Assembly (NCBI GenBank): GCA_902765735.1
Contig: CACXBB010000002.1
Coordinates: 1-64,000 of the forward strand
Source: an uncultured Eubacteriales bacterium
Lineage (GTDB): Bacteria > Bacillota > Clostridia > Christensenellales > Aristaeellaceae
DNA: 64,000 nucleotides
Reading direction: 5' to 3'
Program-made: the position numbers and the translations under genes
Shown: in pieces, positions 2 to 10,686 of the stretch
Numbering within the stretch: the first letter of the stretch is position 1
How the letters are laid out: the number at the start of each line of letters is the position of its first letter
The notes under the pieces: model-generated
What the model saw: the letters and a program-made list of their open reading frames with translations, nothing else
Told to the model about the DNA's origin: nothing
The model's database searches: none

Positions 2-1834
2 GCGTTCTTCACGCTGTTCGGCCACGGCATCGCCGTGGGCCTGGGCGAGGCGCTGGACACCAACCCCGGCTCGATCAAGGTGATGCAGGGCCGCAACGAG
101 CAGGGCATGTGCCACTGCGCCATCGCCTACGCCAAGCAGTCGGACCGCAAGAAGATCATCCCCTGCGCATCGTCCATCGGCCCCGGCGCGGCGAACATGG
201 TCACCGCCTGCGGCACCGCGACGGTGAACAACCTGCCGCTGTTGGTGTTCCCGTCCGACAGCTTCGCCTCCCGCCAGCCTGACCCGGTCTTACAGCAGAT
301 CGAGCAGCCTTCTTCGCTGGCGACCACCACCAACGACGCCTTCAAGCCCGTGACCAAATACTGGGACCGCATCCAGCGGCCTGAGCAGATCATGTCGGCG
401 CTGATCAACGCCATGCGCGTGCTGACCGACCCCGCGGAGTGCGGCGCGGTGTGCATCTCCCTGCCGCAGGACGTGGAGGGCGAGGCGTTCGACTACCCCG
501 TGTCCTTCTTCAACAAGCGCGTGCACCGCATCACCCGGCCCGTGGCCGTCAAGGAGGAGATTGAGGACGTGGCCGAGGTCATCAAGGCGTCCAAGAAGCC
601 CATCGTGATCGTGGGCGGCGGCGTGCGCTACTCCGAGGCGGGGGAGGCCGTGGAGCGGTTCTGCGAGGCCTTCAACATCCCCTTCGGCGAGACCCAGGGC
701 GGAAAAAGCGCCTGCAAGTCCGGCCATCCGTACTGCCTGGGCGGCATCGGCGTGACGGGCACCTCCGCCTCCAACAAGATCGCCCATGAGGCCGACTGCG
801 TGATCGGCATCGGCACCCGCATGACCGACTTCACCACCGGCTCCAAGTGGCTGTTCCGCAACGAGGAGGTCAAGTACGCCTCCATCAACGTCTCCCGCTT
901 CCACGCCTACAAGTTCGATGCCGTGAAGGCCGTGGGCGACGCCCGCGAGACCGTCAAGGCGCTGACTGAGATCCTCAAAAAGGCCGGCTACCGCGCGTCC
1001 TACGACGGCGAGATCGAGTCGGCGAAAAAGGAGTGGGACGACGAGCTCAAACGGTTGGGCAGCTTGGTCTGCGACGGCGAGGACTTCGAGCCCACCATCA
1101 AGGCCCGCGACCCGCGCACCATCCCCGAGTTCTACAAGATGTACGGCACCAGCCTCACGCAGTCCGCGGTGCTGGCGACGCTTCGCGAGGTCATGGGCCC
1201 CGAGGACATCATCGTCTGCGCCGGCGGCTCCCTGCCCAGCGATTTGCAGCGCGTGTGGAAGACCGACAAGCGCGGCGGCTATCATGTGGAGTACGGCTAC
1301 TCCTGCATGGGCTACGAGATCGGCGCGTCGATGGGCGTGAAGATGGCGGACCCCGGCTGCGAGGAGTACACGGTAGTCGGCGACTCCGGCTTCCAGATGC
1401 TGTCCTCTGAATTGGGCACCATCATGCAGGAGCGCGTCAAGACCAACATACTCGTGTTCGACAACTGCGGCTTCGGCTGCATCAACAACCTGGAAATGAC
1501 CCACGGCATCGGCAGTCTCGCCACCGAGTTCCGCTACACCGACGGCAAGAAGCCCACGGGCGACCTGATCCGCACCAACTACGCGCTGATCGGCGAGGCG
1601 TTCGGCATGAAGAGCTACACCTGCAAGTCGGTCGAAGAATTGCGCGCGGCGCTGGAGGACTCCAAGAAGCAGACCGTGGCGTGCCTGTTCGATTTGAAGG
1701 TGCTTCCGAAGACCATGACCGATGGCTACGGCGCGTGGTGGAACGTGGGCATCGCCGTGACCTCCGAGAAGGAGAGCGTGCGCGAGGCCTGCCGCGAGGT
1801 CATGGAGCACCGCGCCCAAGCAAGGAAATACTGA
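2..1834 (+). CDS. iolD: IolD-like ThDP-dependent acylhydrolase (5' partial)
   Basis: The reading frame is open to the left edge, so the N-terminus lies outside the window. The GTG at 35 is not the true start, because FFTLFGHGIAVG encoded before it matches the FGHG motif near the IolD N-terminus. About 610 residues are visible. The middle domain (VVGGGVRYSEAG) and the C-terminal ThDP-binding region (GDSGFQMLSSELGT, then NCGFGCINNLE) are typical of 3D-(3,5/4)-trihydroxycyclohexane-1,2-dione hydrolase, the ring-opening step of myo-inositol catabolism. No other iol gene is visible, so the true substrate may be a related cyclic or acyloin compound. It is first in a co-directional operon with transketolase, GAPDH, PGK, LarA and FAA-hydrolase genes. 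Family call firm, substrate uncertain. Confidence 0.85.
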   Translation, partial: AFFTLFGHGIAVGLGEALDTNPGSIKVMQGRNEQGMCHCAIAYAKQSDRKKIIPCASSIGPGAANMVTACGTATVNNLPLLVFPSDSFASRQPDPVLQQIEQPSSLATTTNDAFKPVTKYWDRIQRPEQIMSALINAMRVLTDPAECGAVCISLPQDVEGEAFDYPVSFFNKRVHRITRPVAVKEEIEDVAEVIKASKKPIVIVGGGVRYSEAGEAVERFCEAFNIPFGETQGGKSACKSGHPYCLGGIGVTGTSASNKIAHEADCVIGIGTRMTDFTTGSKWLFRNEEVKYASINVSRFHAYKFDAVKAVGDARETVKALTEILKKAGYRASYDGEIESAKKEWDDELKRLGSLVCDGEDFEPTIKARDPRTIPEFYKMYGTSLTQSAVLATLREVMGPEDIIVCAGGSLPSDLQRVWKTDKRGGYHVEYGYSCMGYEIGASMGVKMADPGCEEYTVVGDSGFQMLSSELGTIMQERVKTNILVFDNCGFGCINNLEMTHGIGSLATEFRYTDGKKPTGDLIRTNYALIGEAFGMKSYTCKSVEELRAALEDSKKQTVACLFDLKVLPKTMTDGYGAWWNVGIAVTSEKESVREACREVMEHRAQARKY

Positions 1835-1948: not shown

Positions 1949-2794
1949 TTGGACAATCTTGAGAAGCTCGAGCTCAGGCGCTTTGCGGCACAGATCCGCC
2001 TCGCGCTGCTCGAAGAGATAAAGGCCCGCGGGTTCGGCCACATCGGCGGCTCGCTGTCCATCTGCGACCTGCTTGCGGTGCTCTACGGCAAGGTGATGCG
2101 CTACAAGCCCGACGACCCCAAGTGGCCGGACCGCGACAAGCTGGTCAGCTCCAAGGGCCACGCGGGCCCGGCGGTGTACGCCACGCTGGCTTTAAAGGGC
2201 TTCTTCCCGATGGAGGAGTTGAAGACCCTCAACCGCCCCGGCACCAACCTGCCCAGCCACTGCGACAAGAACAAGACCCCCGGCATCGACTGCACCACCG
2301 GCTCGCTGGGCCAGGGCACGTCCCAGGCCGTGGGCATGGCGCTGGGCGACAAATTGAAGGGCCGCGACAGCCGCACCTTCCTGATCGTCGGCGACGGCGA
2401 GCTGGACGAGGGCCAGTGCTGGGAGGCGGCGATGTTCACCGCGGGCAAGAAGATCACGAATCTCACCTGGATCGTGGACGACAACAAGCGCCAGCTCGAC
2501 GGCTACACCGACGACATACTGCCGCTTTTCGACCTCCGGGCGAAGTTCGAGGTCTTCGGCTTCGAGGCCGTCCGCGTGAAGGGCAACGACGTGGAGGCGC
2601 TCTATGACGCGCTGACGAAGGTCCCCGGCGACAGGCCCATCGCCATCATCATGGACAACGTGAAGGGCAGCGGCGTCAAGGGCATCGAGGAGACCCCGGC
2701 CAACCACTCCATGACCCTGCCCGCCGAGACCTGGGATACCTACATCGAAGCCGTCAAGGCGGACCTTGCGGTGCTGGAAAAGGAGGTGGGCTGA
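1949..2794 (+). CDS. Transketolase, N-terminal (ThDP pyrophosphate-binding) subunit
   Basis: 281 residues, the usual length of the N-terminal half of a split transketolase. The TTG start is chosen because TTAGGAGG lies 8 bases upstream and no better start exists. GHIGGSLSICDLL near residue 30, SSKGHAGPAVYA near 70, GSLGQG near 118 and the metal/ThDP motif GDGELDEGQ followed by DNNKRQ are all present. It pairs with the next gene to form one active enzyme transferring two-carbon ketol groups between sugar phosphates. The two genes are separated by one base, so translation is probably coupled. In this operon it may feed glyceraldehyde 3-phosphate or an analogous aldehyde phosphate to the GAPDH and PGK encoded downstream. 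Confidence 0.93.
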   Translation: MDNLEKLELRRFAAQIRLALLEEIKARGFGHIGGSLSICDLLAVLYGKVMRYKPDDPKWPDRDKLVSSKGHAGPAVYATLALKGFFPMEELKTLNRPGTNLPSHCDKNKTPGIDCTTGSLGQGTSQAVGMALGDKLKGRDSRTFLIVGDGELDEGQCWEAAMFTAGKKITNLTWIVDDNKRQLDGYTDDILPLFDLRAKFEVFGFEAVRVKGNDVEALYDALTKVPGDRPIAIIMDNVKGSGVKGIEETPANHSMTLPAETWDTYIEAVKADLAVLEKEVG

Positions 2795-2795
2795 C

Positions 2796-3755
2796 ATGAA
2801 GACCATCTATAACGGCGAAGCGGACAGCCGCACCTTCAAGGAAATGCTGGGCACCATGATCCCGAAAATGCTGGATGACGACCCGAACCTCATCTACCTC
2901 GACGCCGACCTGATGAGCTGCATCGGCACGGCGAAGTACGCCAAGGCCCACCCGGACCGCGCCGTCAACTGCGGCATCGCGGAGGGCAACATGGTGGGCA
3001 TCGCCGCGGGCCTGTCGGCGGTGGGCTTCAACCCCATCTGCCACACCTTCGGACCCTTCGCCTCCCGGCGCTGCTACGACCAGGTGTTCCTGTCCGGCGG
3101 CTACGCCCACAACAGCATGACCATGATCGGCACCGACCCCGGCGTGTGCGCGGCCATGAACGGCGGCACCCACATGCCCTTTGAGGACGTGGCGCTGTAT
3201 CGGGCCATCCCCGGCGCGATCGTCGTCGATCCCGCCGACACCGTGCAGTTTGAGAAGGTGTTCCCCAAGCTGGTGGCGATGGAGGGCATCAAGTACCTGC
3301 GCGTCAACCGCAAGGCCAACGACCGCATCTACGATGCCGACGCCGATTTCGATATCGGCAGGGGCGTGGTGCTTCGCGAGGGCACGGACATCACGCTGAT
3401 CACCGCGGGCTTCATGGTGGGCCGCACCTTGAAGGCGGCGGCGGAGCTGGCCGAGAAGGGCATCGAGGCCACGGTGATCGACATGTTCACCCTGAAACCG
3501 CTTGACGAGGCGCTGGTGATCGAGTACGCGAAGAAGACCGGCGCGGTGGTCACCGTCGAGAACCACAACGCCGTGGGCGGCCTGTACAGCGCGGTCGCGG
3601 ACTGCCTGGCCGCCAACTGCCCCGTGCCCATGGGCCGCGTGGCGGTGGAGGAATCCTTCGGCGCGGTGGGCCCCGCGGACTACCTGGCGGAGTTCTTCGG
3701 CTTGACCGTGGCGCACATACTCGCCGAAGCGGAAAAGACGATTGCAAGAAAATAA
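2796..3755 (+). CDS. Transketolase, C-terminal subunit
   Basis: 319 residues from the ATG at 2796, one base after the stop of the N-terminal subunit, with AGGAGG inside the end of that gene. NCGIAEGNMVGIAAGLS carries the conserved glutamate that activates the ThDP aminopyrimidine ring, and GGTHMPFEDVALYRAIPG is the usual pyrimidine-domain segment. The C-terminal fold follows (ITAGFMVGRTLKAAAEL, TVENHNAVGG). It works as an alpha2beta2 partner of the preceding protein. Split transketolases are common in Clostridia and archaea; association with type II GAPDH and archaeal-type PGK is the unusual part. Confidence 0.93.
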   Translation: MKTIYNGEADSRTFKEMLGTMIPKMLDDDPNLIYLDADLMSCIGTAKYAKAHPDRAVNCGIAEGNMVGIAAGLSAVGFNPICHTFGPFASRRCYDQVFLSGGYAHNSMTMIGTDPGVCAAMNGGTHMPFEDVALYRAIPGAIVVDPADTVQFEKVFPKLVAMEGIKYLRVNRKANDRIYDADADFDIGRGVVLREGTDITLITAGFMVGRTLKAAAELAEKGIEATVIDMFTLKPLDEALVIEYAKKTGAVVTVENHNAVGGLYSAVADCLAANCPVPMGRVAVEESFGAVGPADYLAEFFGLTVAHILAEAEKTIARK

Positions 3756-3780: not shown

Positions 3781-4788
3781 ATGAGCAAGAAAATTCGCGT
3801 TGGCGTCGCCGGTTACGGCACCATCGGACAGCGCCTGGCGGACGGCGTGGCGCTGCAGGGCGACATGGAGCTGGTCGGCATCGCCGATCTGGCCCCGACC
3901 CTGTCCATTCGCGCCTTGAAGGAGCGCGACATGATTGGCGCGAACGGCGTCGAGTACAAGCTGTACCTGGTGGACGGCGCGGACAAGACACAGTTCGACG
4001 CGCTTGACATCCCGGTGGCCGGCACCTTCGAGGAGCTTTGCAAGTCCGTGGACATCATGCTGGACTCCGCGCCCGGCGGCGTCGGCGCCAAGAACAAGGC
4101 CAACTACTACGACAAGTACGGCGTGAAGGCCATCTTCCAGGGCGGCGAGAAGAACAGCGTCGCGGACGTGTTCTTCCACGGCTACGCCAACTATGAGAAG
4201 GGCCTCGGCCAGAACTATCTCAAACTTACCTCTTGCAACACCACCGGCCTCATCCGCTCCGTGGACGCGCTGGACCGCGCCATCGGGCTTGAGAAGGTGG
4301 CCATCACCATCATCCGCCGTGTGGCCGACCCGGGCGATTATCACCGCGGCCTGACCAACGCGCTCCAGATGGAGAAGGCCCCGACCCACCAGGCCGTGGA
4401 CCTCATGACCATCATGCCGCACGTGAACGCCACCGGCATACTGGTGCACACCCCCGTGACCCACGGCCACATCATCACCGTGCTGGCGACCGCCAAGGAC
4501 GGCAAGAAGATCACCAAGGAGATGGCCCTCGAGGTGTTCAACAAGCACCCGCGCATCCGCGTGGTGACCATGGAGGACGGCTTCAAGGGCAACGCCAGCT
4601 TCTTCAAGTACGCCCGCGACCTCGGCAACCGCCGTGGCGACATGTACGAGATCGGCCTGTGGGCGGATTCCATCGTGGAGTCGGGCAACGACATCATGTA
4701 CGCCATCAACATCCCGCAGGAGAGCGTGACCATCGAAGGCACCGCCGAGACCAATAAGTACCTCGGCATCGGCAAGTTCAAGAAGTAA
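3781..4788 (+). CDS. Type II (archaeal-type) glyceraldehyde-3-phosphate dehydrogenase
   Basis: 335 residues. The ATG at 3781 follows TGGAGG and starts directly at the Rossmann motif VGVAGYGTIGQR. The catalytic cysteine lies in SCNTTGL (residue 152), followed by RRVADPGDYHRG and the histidine-rich THGHIIT segment; all are hallmarks of archaeal phosphorylating GAPDH. The bacterial class I motif SCTTNCLAP is absent. The enzyme oxidises an aldehyde phosphate with NAD(P) and phosphate to an acyl phosphate. The next gene is a PGK of the matching archaeal type, so the two may have moved together. Archaeal-type GAPDH in an anaerobic bacterium is unusual and may serve a dedicated catabolic route rather than housekeeping glycolysis; that role is inference. 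Confidence 0.92.
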   Translation: MSKKIRVGVAGYGTIGQRLADGVALQGDMELVGIADLAPTLSIRALKERDMIGANGVEYKLYLVDGADKTQFDALDIPVAGTFEELCKSVDIMLDSAPGGVGAKNKANYYDKYGVKAIFQGGEKNSVADVFFHGYANYEKGLGQNYLKLTSCNTTGLIRSVDALDRAIGLEKVAITIIRRVADPGDYHRGLTNALQMEKAPTHQAVDLMTIMPHVNATGILVHTPVTHGHIITVLATAKDGKKITKEMALEVFNKHPRIRVVTMEDGFKGNASFFKYARDLGNRRGDMYEIGLWADSIVESGNDIMYAINIPQESVTIEGTAETNKYLGIGKFKK

Positions 4789-4798
4789 CAGGCGCCTG

Positions 4799-4957
4799 AC
4801 TCCCTCAGTCAGCCTGCGGCTGACACCTCCCTCTGAGAGGGAGCCAAGTCAACGCGGGGGATACTCGGAGGCCCCCTCTGAGAGGGAGCCTGGGCCGAGG
4901 CCTTCCAAAAGGCCCCCTCCCCGAGGGGGCTGTCGCGCGAAGCGTGACTGGGGGAGT
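4799..4957. repeat. Intergenic inverted-repeat element, GAGGGAG/CTCCCTC type
   Basis: The element begins CTCCCTCAGTCAGCCTGCGG and ends with the approximate inverted counterpart GCGTGACTGGGGGAG. Inside are repeats of CCCTCTGAGAGGGAGCC (near 4830 and 4880) and CCCCCTCCCCGAGGGGGC (near 4915). It fills the gap between the GAPDH and PGK genes. It has no ORF and looks like a dispersed palindromic repeat rather than a gene. Confidence 0.6.
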
Positions 4958-4967
4958 ACTATTACGC

Positions 4968-5004
4968 GGGAGGGAAACGATCAAGGGGTTTCCCTCCCAT
5001 TTTT
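4968..5004 (+). terminator. Intrinsic terminator directly before pgk
   Basis: An 11-bp stem (GGGAGGGAAAC/GTTTCCCTCCC, 4968-4978 and 4988-4998) is followed by ATTTTT. The T-tract abuts the pgk ribosome binding site GGAGGT (5005-5010), leaving no room for a promoter between terminator and start codon. It is either the end of the upstream transcript with read-through, or an attenuator for pgk. Confidence 0.75.
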
Positions 5005-5018
5005 GGAGGTAATGTGCC

Positions 5019-6278
5019 ATGAGATTCGGCATTTACACGCTGGATGAATTCGACGTGAAGGGCAAGACCGTGCTGTGCCGGGTGGACATGAACCAGCCGG
5101 TGGACCGCGCGACCGACACCTTAAAGAGCATCCAGCGCATCACGGCCTGCGCGCCCACGGTGAAGGAGCTCTCCGACAAGGGCGCGAAGGTGGTGCTGCT
5201 GGCCCATCAGGGCAGCGACATCGAGTACAAGAACTTCTACTGCACCCGCCCGCACGCCAAGGTGCTGACGGAGATCCTGGGCCGGGAGGTCAAGTGGATC
5301 GAGGACGTCTGCGGCCCCACGGCGCGGGAGGCCATCAAGGCCATGAAGGACGGCGACATCATCCTGCTGGACAACGTGCGCTTCTGCTCCGAGGAACAGA
5401 CGCTGTTTGAAATGAAGCTGCAGCTCACCCACGAGCAGCAGGCGAAGACGCAGGTCGTCACGAAGCTTGCACCGCTGGCGGACCTCTACGTCTGTGACGC
5501 CTTCGCCGCAGCGCACCGCGACCAGCCCACGCTGTGTGGCTTCGAGCAGGTGCTGCCTTCCGCGATGGGGCGTCTGTTCGAGAAGGAATACTGCGTGATC
5601 TCCGAGCTTATGGAGAAGCCCGAGCACCCCTGCGTGTTCGTGCTGGGCGGCGCGAAGATCTCCGACGCCTTCATGATGATGGAGACGGTGCTGGGCTCCG
5701 GCGCGGCGGACACCGTGCTGACCGGCGGTCTGGTGGGGGAGATCCTGCTCGCCAGCCAGGGGCAGGAGATCGGCAGCGGCACCCTCGGCTTCATCGTGAA
5801 GTCCGGCTACGAGGAGTACATCGAGAAGGCCAAGGGCATCTACGCAAAGTACGCGGACAAGATCATACTGCCTGTCGATCTGGCGCAGGTGGTGGACGGC
5901 GTGCGCGAGGAGGCGCTGGCCGGGGCGATTCCCGCCGACTTCAACGCCATCGACATCGGCACCGGCACCGCGAACCTGTACCGCGAGTACATCCTCAAAG
6001 CCAGGACCGTGTTCGCCAACGGCCCGGTGGGCGTGTTTGAGCAGGCTCCCAGCGAGTACGGCACGAAGGTGCTGTTCGAGTCGATGGCCGAGACCGGGGG
6101 CTACACCGTGGTCGGCGGCGGCGACAGCGTGACGGCGGCGAAGAAGTACGGCGTCACCGACAGGCTGGGCTACATCTGCACCGGCGGCGGCGCGCTGATA
6201 CGCTTCCTGACCGGCGAGGAGTTGCCCGTGGTGAAGGCGCTCCGGCACGCCGCGAAGGCGTTCCCGATGGGGGAATGA
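5019..6278 (+). CDS. pgk: Archaeal-type phosphoglycerate kinase
   Basis: 419 residues with GGAGGT 8 bases before the ATG. RVDMNQPVD near residue 22, LLAHQG near 67, DNVRFCSEE near 117 and CDAFAAAHRDQPT near 155 follow the archaeal pattern; the usual bacterial forms are RVDFNVP, LSHLGRP, ENVRF and NDAFGTAHR. The nucleotide-binding end VVGGGDSVTAAKK and TGGGALIRFLTGE is intact. It converts 1,3-bisphosphoglycerate, or a homologous acyl phosphate, plus ADP to the acid and ATP, completing the step begun by the adjacent type II GAPDH. A terminator hairpin touches its ribosome binding site, suggesting regulated read-through. Confidence 0.92.
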   Translation: MRFGIYTLDEFDVKGKTVLCRVDMNQPVDRATDTLKSIQRITACAPTVKELSDKGAKVVLLAHQGSDIEYKNFYCTRPHAKVLTEILGREVKWIEDVCGPTAREAIKAMKDGDIILLDNVRFCSEEQTLFEMKLQLTHEQQAKTQVVTKLAPLADLYVCDAFAAAHRDQPTLCGFEQVLPSAMGRLFEKEYCVISELMEKPEHPCVFVLGGAKISDAFMMMETVLGSGAADTVLTGGLVGEILLASQGQEIGSGTLGFIVKSGYEEYIEKAKGIYAKYADKIILPVDLAQVVDGVREEALAGAIPADFNAIDIGTGTANLYREYILKARTVFANGPVGVFEQAPSEYGTKVLFESMAETGGYTVVGGGDSVTAAKKYGVTDRLGYICTGGGALIRFLTGEELPVVKALRHAAKAFPMGE

Positions 6279-6282
6279 GCCT

Positions 6283-7533
6283 ATGAAGATCGATTTTGGC
6301 TTCGGCACAGGCGTGCAGAGCGTCGAGGTGCCGGATAAGAACCTGCTGGGCATACTGATGGCCAACGACGTGCCCAAGGGGTTGATGAACGAGGAGGAGG
6401 TGCGGCGGGCTCTGGAGAACCCCATCGGCACGCCGAGGCTTAAGGACATCGTAAAGCCCGGCGAGAAGATCGCGATCATCACCTCGGACATCACCCGCCC
6501 CTGCCCGACCTACCGCATCATGCCGCCGCTTTTGGACGAGCTCTACTCGGCGGGCTGCCGGCCGGAGGACATTACCCTCGTGTTTGCGCTGGGCAGCCAC
6601 CGCAGGCACACCCCGGCGGAGATGCTCAAGCTGGCGGGGCAGCGGGCCATCAACGAGATCGAGTGCGTGGACAGCGACCCGGACGACTGCGTGCACATCG
6701 GCGTGACCGACTGCGGCACGCCCGTGGACATCACCCGCGTGGTGGCAGAGGCCGACCGGCGCATCTGCCTGGGCAACATCGAATATCACTACTTCGCGGG
6801 CTATTCCGGCGGGGCGAAGGCCATCATGCCGGGAAGCTCGACCCCCGCGGCCATACAGGCCAACCACTCCATGATGGTCAGGGACGAATGCTGCGCGGGC
6901 AACCTGGACGGCAATCCGCTCAGGCAGGACATCGAGCAGGCCGCGGCCATGACCGGCGTTGACTTCATCGTCAACGTGGTGCTGGACGAGCACAAGCAGA
7001 TCGTCCGCGCCGTGGCGGGCGACCTGGTCAAGGCCCACCGCGAGGGCTGCAAGTTCCTGGACGGCATGTACATGAAGCCCATCGACGCCCGGGCGGACAT
7101 CGTGATCGTGTCACAGGGCGGCGCTCCGAAGGACCTGAACCTCTATCAGACCCAGAAGGCGCTGGACAACGCCAAGCACGCCGTCAAAAAGGGCGGGACA
7201 ATCATCTTAATTGGCTCCTGCAAAGAGGGACTGGGCAGCAAGGTGTTCGAGGAGTGGCTGATGGCCGCGCCCACCGCGCACAGCATGATCGAGCGCATCG
7301 GGCGGGAGTTCCAGCTCGGAGGCCACAAGGCTGCTGCCATCGCCATGGTGCTGGAGAACGCCGAGATCTACCTGGTGAGCGACATGGCGGACGACTTCGT
7401 CGAGAGCATCTTTTTAAAGCCCGCCCATTCGGCGCAGGAGGCGTTCGATAAAGCCATGGCCCGCCTCGGCCCCGACGCCACCGTGCTGTGCATGCCCTAC
7501 GGCGGCTCCACGCTGCCACGGGCGAAGGCATAG
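6283..7533 (+). CDS. larA: LarA-family nickel-pincer racemase/epimerase
   Basis: 416 residues, starting 4 bases after pgk stops. LarA signature residues are present in order: TSDITRPCP (Asp/Arg pair), GSHRRHT (catalytic His), YHYFAGYSGGAKAIMPG (second catalytic His and the Lys that holds the pyridinium cofactor), AIQANHSMM (nickel-binding His) and GAPKDLNLYQ (substrate-binding Lys). LarA enzymes racemise lactate or epimerise other 2-hydroxy acids through the nickel pincer nucleotide. The cofactor genes larB, larC and larE are not in the window. In this operon a 2-hydroxy acid derived from a sugar is more plausible than lactate itself; that is inference. Confidence 0.88.
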   Translation: MKIDFGFGTGVQSVEVPDKNLLGILMANDVPKGLMNEEEVRRALENPIGTPRLKDIVKPGEKIAIITSDITRPCPTYRIMPPLLDELYSAGCRPEDITLVFALGSHRRHTPAEMLKLAGQRAINEIECVDSDPDDCVHIGVTDCGTPVDITRVVAEADRRICLGNIEYHYFAGYSGGAKAIMPGSSTPAAIQANHSMMVRDECCAGNLDGNPLRQDIEQAAAMTGVDFIVNVVLDEHKQIVRAVAGDLVKAHREGCKFLDGMYMKPIDARADIVIVSQGGAPKDLNLYQTQKALDNAKHAVKKGGTIILIGSCKEGLGSKVFEEWLMAAPTAHSMIERIGREFQLGGHKAAAIAMVLENAEIYLVSDMADDFVESIFLKPAHSAQEAFDKAMARLGPDATVLCMPYGGSTLPRAKA

Positions 7534-7558: not shown

Positions 7559-8431
7559 ATGAAGCTGGTGACTTATACCCGCCGCGGCGACACCCGTGAG
7601 GCGGTGGGCGTATGGACGGATAAAGGCATCGTGCCGGTGAAGGCGCTGGGACTGGCGTTCGAGACCATGAACGACCTGATCCTGCGCGCCACCGAGGCGG
7701 ACATGGCCATATTGCGCGAAGCGCAGGGCGAGGCGCTGCCGCTGGATAAGGTGACGCTGCTGGCTCCCATCCCGCGCCCCTTGCAGGATGTGGTGTGCCT
7801 GGGGCTCAACTACACCGAGCACGCGGAGGAGGCGTTCGGCTACTCGAAGCAGGCGTTTTCCGCCGACCGCGCCGTGTCGATCTTCTTCTCCAAGCGGGTG
7901 AGCTGGTGCCAGGGCAGCGGCGAACTGATCCCCGCCCACCGGGAGCTGACCCAGCGGCTGGACTATGAAAACGAGCTGGCGGTGATCCTGGGGAAGGACG
8001 CGCGGGACGTCGCCGAGGCGGACGTGCCCGACTACATCTTCGGCTACACCATCGTCAATGATGTCTCCGCCCGCGACCTTCAGACGTCCCACCGCCAGTG
8101 GTACTTCGGCAAGAGCCTCGACGGCTTTACCCCGATGGGGCCGTGCATCGTCACTGCGGACGACATCCCCTTCCCGCCGGACCTGGCCATCTCCACAAGG
8201 GTCAACGGCGAGCTTCGGCAGAACAGCCGCACGAGCATGCTGATCCACGGCATCGCCGAGATCGTATCGACCCTCAGCCGCGGCATGACGCTGCTGGCCG
8301 GCACCATCATTGCCACCGGCACGCCGAAGGGCGTCGCCATGGGCATGGAGACGCCGAAATTCCTGATTCCCGGGGATGTGGTGACGTGCAGCATCGAGGG
8401 CATCGGGGATCTGGTCAACAGAGTTGAATGA
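7559..8431 (+). CDS. Fumarylacetoacetate hydrolase family protein
   Basis: 290 residues with CGGAGG 8 bases upstream of the ATG. VCLGLNYTEHAEE near residue 80, the metal ligands in DYENELAVILGK (near 139), the lid segment GYTIVNDVSARDLQ and the end ATGTPKGVAMGM are diagnostic. Members hydrolyse or decarboxylate acylpyruvates and 2-oxo acids or act as dehydratase-isomerases on sugar-acid intermediates, using Mg or Mn. As last gene of the operon before a bidirectional terminator it probably handles a 2-oxo acid of the same pathway. Exact reaction unknown. Confidence 0.88.
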   Translation: MKLVTYTRRGDTREAVGVWTDKGIVPVKALGLAFETMNDLILRATEADMAILREAQGEALPLDKVTLLAPIPRPLQDVVCLGLNYTEHAEEAFGYSKQAFSADRAVSIFFSKRVSWCQGSGELIPAHRELTQRLDYENELAVILGKDARDVAEADVPDYIFGYTIVNDVSARDLQTSHRQWYFGKSLDGFTPMGPCIVTADDIPFPPDLAISTRVNGELRQNSRTSMLIHGIAEIVSTLSRGMTLLAGTIIATGTPKGVAMGMETPKFLIPGDVVTCSIEGIGDLVNRVE

Positions 8432-8490: not shown

Positions 8491-9372
8491 TCAATAGCGG
8501 TTCAGTATGCTCCGCACAGCGCCCAGATACCCGCCGCCGAACAGGTTGAGGTGGTTTAGCAGGTGGTAGAGGTTGTACAGGTCGCGGCGTCGGGCGTATC
8601 CCGGCTGGAGGGGGCGGGCCTCCCGGTAGGCGTCGTAGAAGCGGGGATGGAAGCCGCCGAAGAGCTCCGTCATGGCGAGGGAGGATGCGAAGCCGTGGCC
8701 CGGCAGCGCCAGCGCGTCGCCGATCAATGCCCGCATTTTGACGAGGTAGTCCCGCATCAGCCCGCCGGCGCGGTAGGCCAGCTCGCTGTAGGCGTCCGGG
8801 TCCTCATACATGTCCTCGAAGAGGGCAGTGGTGGGCATCATCTCGCTGATGATGTTCAGCGGGGACTGTATGTCGCAGAAGGACACAGGCAGCTTCCCCT
8901 TCGTCTGATCGAGGAAGTACTCCACGTAGGCGAGCTGATCCTTGCCGATCTCGGTGGTGTGGATCGGGGCGGGGTCGTAGGCCAGGGCCTCTTCAATGCT
9001 CTCAAACTGATCGGAGACCGCCGGGGCCTGGCCGTCGAGCCAGATGTATTTGGACCCGAAGGCCGCCGCGCCGATGCCGATGCCGTACCAGGGCTCCAGG
9101 TAGTTGGCCATGTCGGCGGCATAATCCATGCTCTGCTGGAGCGCGCCGAGCTGGAGCCGCAGGGACAGCTCCCGGTCCCGGCACTCCCAGCCGTAGACCT
9201 CCGCCACGCGGAAGCGCCGGTACACCAGCACGCCGGAGTCCGCCGCCATGAAGCGGCGGACCTTTTCGTCCTGACGGGCAGCGTATTCCGCGTAGCGGTC
9301 GAAGTCGAAGGCCTCCGGGGCGACACCGGTGACCGCCGTGCTCTGGGAATCCCGAAGCGATGTGTCAAACAT
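8491..9372 (-). pseudogene. Chimeric ORF: UroD-family N-terminal part joined to fructosamine-kinase C-terminus
   Basis: 293 codons, open throughout, with GGGAGG 10 bases before the ATG. Residues 1 to about 230 match the first two thirds of UroD-superfamily proteins (YVEYFLDQTKGKLPVSFCDIQ; LALPGHGFASS). From about residue 231 the sequence changes abruptly to the C-terminal signature of fructosamine-3-kinase: LAMTELFGGFHPRFYDAYRE, then RRDLYNLYHLLNH and LFGGGYLG. The UroD part lacks its C-terminal metal/substrate half and the kinase part lacks its whole ATP-binding lobe, so neither activity is expected. The join lies near 8676-8690. It follows dctM with a 6-base gap. Either a real deletion fusion or an assembly join. 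Confidence 0.8.
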
Positions 9373-9378
9373 AGCGCA

Positions 9379-10686
9379 TCAACCTCCCGCCTTCAGGGGC
9401 ATGACGATGTTCGGCAGGGTCATGGTGAACGCCGGCCAGTAGGTGACGATGGCCAGCACCACCAGCATGACGATGAAGAAGGGGATCAGCGTCTTGCCCA
9501 GGCGCTCGATGGGCACCTTGGAGATGGCCGAGCCGATGAACAGCGTCGAGCCCACGGGCGGCGTGACCAGGCCGATGCCCAGGTTCAGTATCATGATGCA
9601 GCCGAACTGCACCGGATCCACGCCGATCTGCTGGGCGATGGGCAGCAGTATGGGCGTCAGCAGCAGTATGTTGCAGCTCATGTCCATCATCGTGCCGAAG
9701 ATCAGCATGATGGCGTTCATCAGAAGCAGTATCAGGAACTTGTTGGTGGTGACGCTGAGTATGGCCGTGGCGATGATCTTCGGCACCTTTAAGTAGGTCA
9801 GGCACCAAGAGAACGCCGCCGAGGTGGAGATCAGTATCAGCACGATGGCCAGGGTGTTCAGCGCGCGCTCCAGCACCTGCCAGAAGTCCTTGAAGGTCAG
9901 CCTGCGGTAGATGAACGCACCGCAGAATATGGCCCACACCACGGCGATGGCGGCGGACTCGGTGGCGGTGAACACGCCGGCCACCACGCCGACCACCACG
10001 ATCAGCACGGTCATCAGGCCCCAGAAGGCGCTGATGAAGGATTTCAGAAAGCGCTTGAGGTTGAAGGCGTCGCCCTTGGGATACTGGCGCTTGACGGAGA
10101 TGTAGTAGCTGTAGATCATCAGCGCGACGCCCAGCAGTATGCCCGGCGCGTAGCCCGCGATGAACAGCCGCCCTATGGACACGCTGCCCGCCACGGTGGC
10201 GTAGATGACCATGTTGTGGCTGGGTGGGATCAGTATGCCCTGCACCGAGGAGGTCATGGTGACGTTGGCGGAGAAGTCGTCGTCGTAGCCCTGCTCCACC
10301 ATCATCGGGATGAGGATGGTGCCCAGGGAGGCGCAGTCCGCCGCGGAGGAGCCGGAGATGCCGCCGAAGAACATCGAGGCCACGATGTTCACCATGGACA
10401 GGCCGCCGCGCATCCAGCCGACGATGGCGTCGGACAGCTCGATCAGCTTGTCCGAGATGCCGCCCGCGCCCATCAGCTCGCCGGCCAGTATGAAGAACGG
10501 CACCGCCATCAGCGAGAAGCTGAACACGCCCTTGACCATGAGCTGCACGACCTGCTGGAGGTTGAGCTTCATGTACATCATGCCGATCACGGCGGCGATG
10601 CCGATGGCGTAGGCGATGGGGAAGCTCAGTATGATAAACACGAAGAACAGTACGATCAGTATGGCGATTGCGATCGTGGTATTCAC
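9379..10686 (-). CDS. dctM: TRAP transporter large permease (DctM)
   Basis: 435 residues, hydrophobic throughout. Family motifs include PFFILAGELM near residue 62, GGISGSSAADCASLGTILIP near 105, IPPSHNMVIYA and the C-terminal LNLGIGLVTPPVGSTLF. It is the cation-coupled translocation subunit of a tripartite transporter for organic acids such as uronates or dicarboxylates. Its ATG overlaps the stop of the dctQ remnant (ATGA), as in intact TRAP operons. The periplasmic-type binding protein DctP is not in the window, and dctQ is truncated, so the transporter is probably not functional from this locus alone. Confidence 0.93.
   Translation of the reverse strand: MNTTIAIAILIVLFFVFIILSFPIAYAIGIAAVIGMMYMKLNLQQVVQLMVKGVFSFSLMAVPFFILAGELMGAGGISDKLIELSDAIVGWMRGGLSMVNIVASMFFGGISGSSAADCASLGTILIPMMVEQGYDDDFSANVTMTSSVQGILIPPSHNMVIYATVAGSVSIGRLFIAGYAPGILLGVALMIYSYYISVKRQYPKGDAFNLKRFLKSFISAFWGLMTVLIVVVGVVAGVFTATESAAIAVVWAIFCGAFIYRRLTFKDFWQVLERALNTLAIVLILISTSAAFSWCLTYLKVPKIIATAILSVTTNKFLILLLMNAIMLIFGTMMDMSCNILLLTPILLPIAQQIGVDPVQFGCIMILNLGIGLVTPPVGSTLFIGSAISKVPIERLGKTLIPFFIVMLVVLAIVTYWPAFTMTLPNIVMPLKAGG

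Follow-up and report, generated by a model that had tools for sequence, protein, structure and literature searches.

An archaeal-type GAPDH and PGK pair in inositol operons lacking IolC and IolJ: a probable module for oxidation of D-malate semialdehyde

The window analyzed here comprises 64,000 nucleotides (positions 1 to 64,000, forward strand) of contig CACXBB010000002.1, referred to as C2, from the draft genome of an uncultured Eubacteriales bacterium (GCA_902765735.1; 2.9 Mb, 73 contigs, 96.7% complete). Two neighboring genes on the forward strand of this window encode a homologue of type II glyceraldehyde-3-phosphate dehydrogenase (GAPDH; 3781..4788) and a homologue of phosphoglycerate kinase (PGK; 5019..6278), and stand in an inositol operon that carries a split transketolase and lacks the kinase IolC and the aldolase IolJ. 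Judged from sequence comparison and gene context, the pair is predicted, with a probability of roughly 0.7, to oxidize D-malate semialdehyde to D-malate with formation of ATP, the GAPDH homologue acting as a phosphorylating D-malate-semialdehyde dehydrogenase and the PGK homologue as a D-malyl-phosphate kinase.

The route would begin as in the known pathway, IolG, IolE, IolD and IolB, whose activities are taken from their families, converting myo-inositol to 2-deoxy-5-keto-D-gluconate (DKG). Written from its CH2OH end (derived by hand), DKG would be CH2OH-CO-CHOH-CHOH-CH2-COOH and would have the same D-threo arrangement as fructose and xylulose, the one used by transketolases. The split transketolase would move the two-carbon end of DKG to an aldose phosphate, e.g. 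glyceraldehyde 3-phosphate, to yield xylulose 5-phosphate and (R)-3-hydroxy-4-oxobutanoate, which is D-malate semialdehyde and would share the configuration of D-glyceraldehyde, with -CH2-COO- replacing -CH2-O-PO3. The GAPDH relative would convert this aldehyde and phosphate to D-malyl-1-phosphate, the PGK relative would hand the phosphate to ADP to give D-malate and ATP, a LarAH6-type racemase would turn D-malate into L-malate, and malic enzyme would release pyruvate and CO2. Relative to the IolC/IolJ route, no ATP would be spent on DKG and one would be gained. The stereochemistry of DKG alone predicts (R)-malate, i.e. D-malate, and an L-malate-specific malic enzyme could then act only after a malate racemase; homologues of both enzymes were found within the operon set.

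The GAPDH homologue scored over the cut-offs of NF003251 (345.7 bits, cut-off 185) and TIGR01546 (GAPDH-II_archae; 257.4 bits, cut-off 232.9), and its closest match in the PDB was 2czc from Pyrococcus horikoshii (217.7 bits). It was aligned with 83 further members of its bacterial clade and with 120 listed archaeal sequences, to which it was 68–99% and 33–42% identical, respectively. The active-site Cys152 in the motif SCNTTGL and His228 of the window protein are common to the archaeal sequences, and the proteins share family and the retained Cys140 and His219 (M. fervidus numbering), taken to be the active-site residues, with the archaeal glycolytic enzymes (2czc, 1cf2, 1b7g, 2yyy; for PGK, 2cun). 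Thirty-eight columns that hold one residue in at least 95% of the archaeal GAPDHs (n = 120) differ or vary in the clade (n = 84). Six of the substitutions (Lys33 to Asp, Pro179 to Leu, His194 to Gln, Pro214 to His, Thr216 to Pro and Met218 to Thr) are shared by all 84 members and presumably lie in the substrate and cofactor regions or close to them, whereas Arg167, Arg168, His193 and His221 are unchanged together with the two active-site residues. Such a pattern would be expected from a changed substrate and a switch from NADP to NAD, and the fixed changes argue for a substrate other than glyceraldehyde 3-phosphate. In a tree whose only bacterial GAPDH-II sequences were those of the clade, a stem of 0.98 separated the 84 members from the 120 archaeal sequences; the 84 formed one group, for which no support is claimed, the value at their node, with the tree rooted on a single archaeal tip, being only 0.039.

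The PGK homologue matched PF00162 with 372.7 bits (cut-off 27), and its closest PDB match was 2cun (293 bits), which we take to be the PGK of P. horikoshii; in a tree that included this as its single archaeal sequence, the clade and P. horikoshii grouped with a support of 0.99. Identity of the window protein was 34.7–40.1% with the four PGKs of known structure that were compared and 36.8% with a second PGK of its own genome. The clade differs mainly at positions 65–66, position 65 being Ser in 63 and Asp in 12 of 75 sequences (Gln in yeast, Arg in bacteria, Lys in P. horikoshii), a weak hint of a substrate other than 3-phosphoglycerate. A clear PGK signature for a carboxylate substrate was looked for, and just this weak one was found.

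The preliminary description of this DNA had placed an archaeal-type GAPDH and an archaeal-type PGK side by side, which the type II models and the two archaeal PDB matches bear out; the motifs that it listed (SCNTTGL in the GAPDH; LAHQG, DNVRF and DAFAAAHR in the PGK) are all present. Its proposal of a transferred pair serving a dedicated pathway survives in the dedicated role; a recent transfer from archaea is unsupported, given the low archaeal identity and the long stem of the GAPDH. It had further suggested another aldehyde phosphate as substrate. Another aldehyde is favored here, while the phosphate is not: the surroundings point to the carboxylate-bearing D-malate semialdehyde, and the pair probably acts on an aldehyde carboxylate rather than on an aldehyde phosphate.

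Further copies were found in the same genome: contig C46 bears a second PGK, which scores 557.1 bits where the window copy scores 372.6, and C33 bears a GAPDH of class I type (Gp_dh_N, 125.5 bits). The pair is thus not the only GAPDH and PGK present, housekeeping glycolysis was rejected as its role in this genome, and the earlier proposal of a dedicated pair outside glycolysis gains support. Across 59 GAPDH-carrying genomes (13 from the class sample described below and 46 from behind the fetched loci), 53 had at least two PGK matches, five had the operon-type PGK alone and one had the other type alone, draft gaps being a possible cause of these single-PGK genomes.

The gene that follows PGK encodes a LarA homologue (6283..7533, forward strand) of the LarAH6 malate racemase family (NF052593, 581.1 bits, cut-off 500), whose best PDB match was the malate racemase Mar2 (6d6z, 416.7 bits). 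A catalytic His and pincer Lys motif, scored with the motifs that we take to be those of LarA, was present in 65 of 68 LarA cluster members, the window copy among them. LarAH6/Mar2 of Thermoanaerobacterium thermosaccharolyticum is given as a measured malate racemase in the text of PMC7583248, where the group is tied by context to malic enzyme, as in the operons described here; it is named also in a passage of PMC11770544. A term search of the main text of PMC7583248 showed no connection with inositol, transketolase or PGK.

A scan of GTDB genomes with the window GAPDH returned 459 relatives, and the best 80 of these 459 (79–94% identity) were kept as related loci; 42 of the 80 were at least 15 kb long. 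Genes per locus were counted by tblastn with bit thresholds of our own choosing, because a simple gene caller chose antisense frames in some G+C-rich loci. The titles of the 80 loci name Clostridia, Spirochaetes (L022, L024, L026, L027) and one member of the Synergistaceae, many of them from rumen or gut. PGK was found in 71 loci, LarA in 60, iolB in 46, transketolase in 45, iolE in 44, iolG and iolD in 39 each and malic enzyme in 32; the corresponding counts in the 42 longer loci were 41 (PGK), 38 (LarA), 34 (iolB), 32 (iolE), 30 (iolD), 28 (transketolase), 23 (iolG) and 21 (malic enzyme). IolC and IolJ were detected in 0 of the 80. PGK lay less than 400 bp behind GAPDH in 68 of the 71 PGK-bearing loci (median gap 36 bp), and the pairing is not due to chance. 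All 45 transketolase-positive loci held genes for both halves, as did 27 of the 39 with iolD. LarA or a D-malate-type dehydrogenase occurred in 39 of the 42 longer loci; in L025, which yielded neither LarA nor any iol gene, PGK is followed by a member of the tartrate/D-malate dehydrogenase family (TIGR02089, 503.8 bits, cut-off 470.4), which presumably acts on D-malate.

Replacement of IolC and IolJ was examined in a sample of 391 genomes from the class of the window, 28 of which had IolD over the cut-off. GAPDH-II was over its cut-off in 13 of the 28, IolC in 11 and both in none (P 6.7e-5 by Fisher test, without correction for relatedness), and both states occur within each of two families (f24 and f42). 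No IolC over the cut-off was found in 46 further genomes, which were those tested from behind the 80 related loci. The iolD loci of all 28 genomes were fetched together with second loci of three of them, giving 31 (the two contig pieces of G091 counted once). Twelve genomes were of the GAPDH type, ten with GAPDH and PGK inside the iolD locus and two (G318, G301) with the pair on another contig; transketolase was seen in 11 of these (not G301), LarA in 11 (not G358) and malic enzyme in 7. The IolC type comprised 12 loci in 11 genomes. In the iol operons of five genomes (L125/G124, L137/G076, L138/G061, L139/G033 and L150/G086), a transaldolase-family gene takes the place where IolC and IolJ are expected; that of L125 matched NF002881 best (112.7 bits, cut-off 367), and the other four were alike by tblastn. 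An IolA-like dehydrogenase is also present in three of the five (L138, L139, L150), and from DKG a transaldolase would yield malonate semialdehyde with no phosphorylation step. G124, which has one of these operons, carries a GAPDH–PGK pair at a separate site without iol genes. Second iolD loci were found in G145, G314 and G233; the one in G233 was again of the IolC type, and that of G145 showed none of the modules in the 17 kb fetched. A strict claim of three exclusive operon types was weakened, as the second loci of G314 and G145 fit no type. On balance it appears probable that inositol catabolism is built with interchangeable C–C cleaving modules (kinase/aldolase, transaldolase and transketolase), and that in the transketolase module an archaeal-type GAPDH and PGK became a D-malate-semialdehyde dehydrogenase and a malyl-phosphate kinase, giving an ATP-yielding route from inositol to malate that would be common in gut and rumen bacteria.

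In the genome of the window, the operon appears to be divided between contigs. In the window, iolD (3D-trihydroxycyclohexane-1,2-dione acylhydrolase; 2..1834, forward strand; TIGR04377, 839.4 bits, cut-off 715) has lost its 5' end at the contig end, and another contig, C60 (8.3 kb, fetched as L093), carries on one strand the start of iolD, iolB, iolE and a sugar-type ABC importer, with iolG and malic enzyme on the divergent strand. The importer and malic enzyme on C60 were named by eye and similarity, IolE and IolG by similarity; IolE and IolG of relatives score over curated cut-offs. In the locus of a close relative (L005, genome G391) the order is unbroken, running importer, iolE, iolB, iolD, transketolase N, transketolase C, GAPDH, PGK, LarA and FAA hydrolase, and C60 and C2 are inferred to adjoin in the genome. 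At the outer end of C60 (about 1–540 of L093) the start of iolD runs into sequence that we take to be clpX-like, and this end is probably an assembly chimera. No IolC was over the cut-off in this genome (best 63.3 bits, cut-off 300), and no IolJ match of at least 150 bits was obtained by tblastn in the first 20 kb of the window, in L093 or in the 80 loci, a search confined to these sequences and not genome-wide.

Against oxidation of D-malate semialdehyde by the pair stand several observations, some of which concern the copy in this genome. An in-frame gap removes 18 residues close to the C-terminus of the window GAPDH, a gap seen in none of the 83 other aligned members, and an inverted-repeat element resembling a miniature inverted-repeat transposable element (4800..4956; ends CTCCCTCAGTCA / TGACTGGGGGAG; DNA fold z -3.78) parts GAPDH from PGK, so that this GAPDH copy may be damaged or misassembled. 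The end motif of the element has two matches in the 64 kb, both of them its own ends (0.24 expected; 2 of 100 shuffles reach two), and the spacer at the same place in L005 is without it. LarE was not found in the draft genome (best 31.7 bits, cut-off 150; the LarE search covered this genome only), nor did LarC have a match there (LarB was not searched for), and IolB scored below its curated cut-off (82.9 bits versus 205). The gap, the repeat element and the missing LarC and LarE would suit a module that is decaying and no longer works in this particular genome, whatever its role elsewhere. We consider such decay unlikely: the reading frames are open, the assembly is an incomplete draft with a chimeric-looking contig end, so that gaps and missing genes are possibly artefacts, and L005 has a full-length GAPDH (99.4% identical to the window copy over aligned residues, 94% in the best tblastn segment) in a genome that also has LarC. 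Among the 70 genomes searched, LarC was present in 45, including 9 of the 12 other GAPDH-positive class genomes and 28 of the 46 behind the related loci.

Other adverse observations suit a role in glycolysis, the pair being in that case a second copy of the lower pathway, co-expressed with the inositol genes to handle triose phosphate flowing from inositol degradation. Beyond the family names of GAPDH and PGK, the residues corresponding to yeast Arg21, Arg38, His62, Arg121 and Arg168, presumably the basic patch that binds 3-phosphoglycerate, are kept in 75, 75, 75, 75 and 74 of 75 PGKs (the last with one gap). A permuted paralogue of the next glycolytic enzyme, phosphoglycerate mutase, occurs in 24 of the 80 loci and is more simply explained by a glycolytic role; an ordinary phosphoglycerate mutase was over the cut-off in 16 of 18 tested genomes carrying the paralogue. 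A second glycolytic copy is nevertheless improbable, given the other PGK and GAPDH of this genome and the other PGK in most genomes tested; it would leave the malate racemase, malic enzyme and D-malate-type dehydrogenase beside the pair unexplained, and the pair occurs where IolC and IolJ, which would produce the triose phosphate, do not.

The remaining points against D-malate semialdehyde as the substrate come from loci that depart from the predicted gene set. Twelve of the 39 iolD loci show no transketolase; the LarA-like proteins of three Spirochaete loci (L022, L024, L027) are without the catalytic His and pincer Lys motif; the second iol locus of G314 (L153, contig C4) has a split transketolase and no GAPDH, PGK or LarA, the other operon of that genome having IolC; and in 8 of the 42 longer loci GAPDH occurs without iolD, iolE or iolB, the module therefore also serving something else. 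These eight loci, together with three (L049, L050, L052) in which PGK is absent and a pyruvate/acetoin-dehydrogenase-like gene, named by eye, lies beside GAPDH, would fit action on another aldehyde from a transketolase or aldolase (e.g. erythrose 4-phosphate, malonate semialdehyde or tartronate semialdehyde) with inositol genes as merely frequent company, which we regard as doubtful, as the presence of LarA or the D-malate-type dehydrogenase suggests malate whatever the context, and malonate semialdehyde has no hydroxyl for the downstream racemase.

Plant diets are rich in inositol and phytate. If the pair oxidizes D-malate semialdehyde as proposed, the predicted products of inositol would shift to malate and pyruvate rather than malonate semialdehyde, the energy yield would change, and the GAPDH–PGK pair would gain chemistry beyond phosphorylated sugars. 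In canonical myo-inositol catabolism, as presented for Bacillus subtilis and Anaerostipes rhamnosivorans in the text of PMC8355322, IolG, IolE, IolD and IolB are followed by IolC and IolJ. The operons described here have the upper genes in common with it (iolG, iolE and iolD over curated cut-offs, iolB below), and the intermediate DKG is likely the same; in the 80 loci they differ in having transketolase, GAPDH, PGK, LarA and malic enzyme in place of IolC and IolJ, with malate or pyruvate as the predicted end product and one ATP gained. The nearest mechanistic parallel of the transketolase branch is, by analogy, sulfoglycolysis, for which the portions of PMC8873060 consulted give kinase/aldolase, transaldolase and transketolase (sulfo-TK) forms. 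In the sulfo-TK pathway, a transketolase removes C2 units from an unphosphorylated ketose bearing an acid group, as is predicted here for DKG. The likeness would be one of mechanism only, and the inositol branch is not a member of sulfo-TK: a carboxylate stands here for the sulfonate, and the leftover aldehyde would be oxidized by GAPDH and PGK instead of being processed as a sulfonate.

Neither a transketolase nor a transaldolase branch of inositol catabolism was found described in the literature searched, preprints and most subscription journals lying outside its reach, and the terms transketolase, transaldolase and malate do not occur in the searched text of a 2025 review (PMC12482443). A genome survey counts an inositol cluster from three of the four genes iolB, iolC, iolD and iolE, according to the portion consulted (PMC9430895), and operons of the present kind may therefore enter such counts and be read as the IolC route. 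In the text seen of a 2026 pig-gut study (PMC12838507), the known cluster was present in only 19 of 40 inositol growers and an unidentified pathway was suspected; the GAPDH–PGK module need not explain these growers, as the taxa named there are others.

The further neighbors named in the preliminary description (a transketolase, here split, IolD, LarA and an FAA hydrolase) were confirmed by profile matches. The N-terminal, thiamine diphosphate (ThDP)-binding subunit of the transketolase (1949..2794, forward strand) matched PF00456 with 144.8 bits, and the ThDP motif was present in 44 of 44 cluster members; the C-terminal subunit (2766..3755, forward strand) matched PF02779 and PF02780, and its best PDB match was 6yaj, the C-terminal chain of a split transketolase of Carboxydothermus hydrogenoformans. 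Other transketolase genes in this genome are a full-length copy on C34 and an N-terminal half on C36. The FAA hydrolase (7559..8431, forward strand; PF01557, 223.9 bits) was rejected as a core member of the pathway, being found in 1 of the 80 related loci.

GAPDH–PGK modules were also seen beside sugar importers or other catabolic genes in loci without iolD, iolE or iolB (L010, L037, L025 and L029, the last by eye), and the module may serve other sugar acids too. In L053, GAPDH, PGK and a LarA homologue are accompanied by a transaldolase-family gene and acetoin/pyruvate-dehydrogenase-like genes (by eye), with no iol genes. L058, from Oscillibacter valericigenes An411, the one cultured strain noticed among the 80 loci, carries GAPDH and PGK, with neither iol genes nor LarA in the 21 kb fetched. 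The phosphoglycerate mutase paralogue of L034 (6634–8199) is apparently circularly permuted, residues 13–304 matching model positions 214–504 with the other stretch coming after; the neighbors of the permuted gene, named by eye, are HAD-family genes, a PHP-like gene and a LacI-like regulator, and the set may serve in processing inositol phosphates. At 8491–9372 on the reverse strand of the window, a fructosamine kinase model was matched only over residues 231–292 in the best stretch, and this region adjoins a gene for a TRAP transporter large permease (9379–10686).

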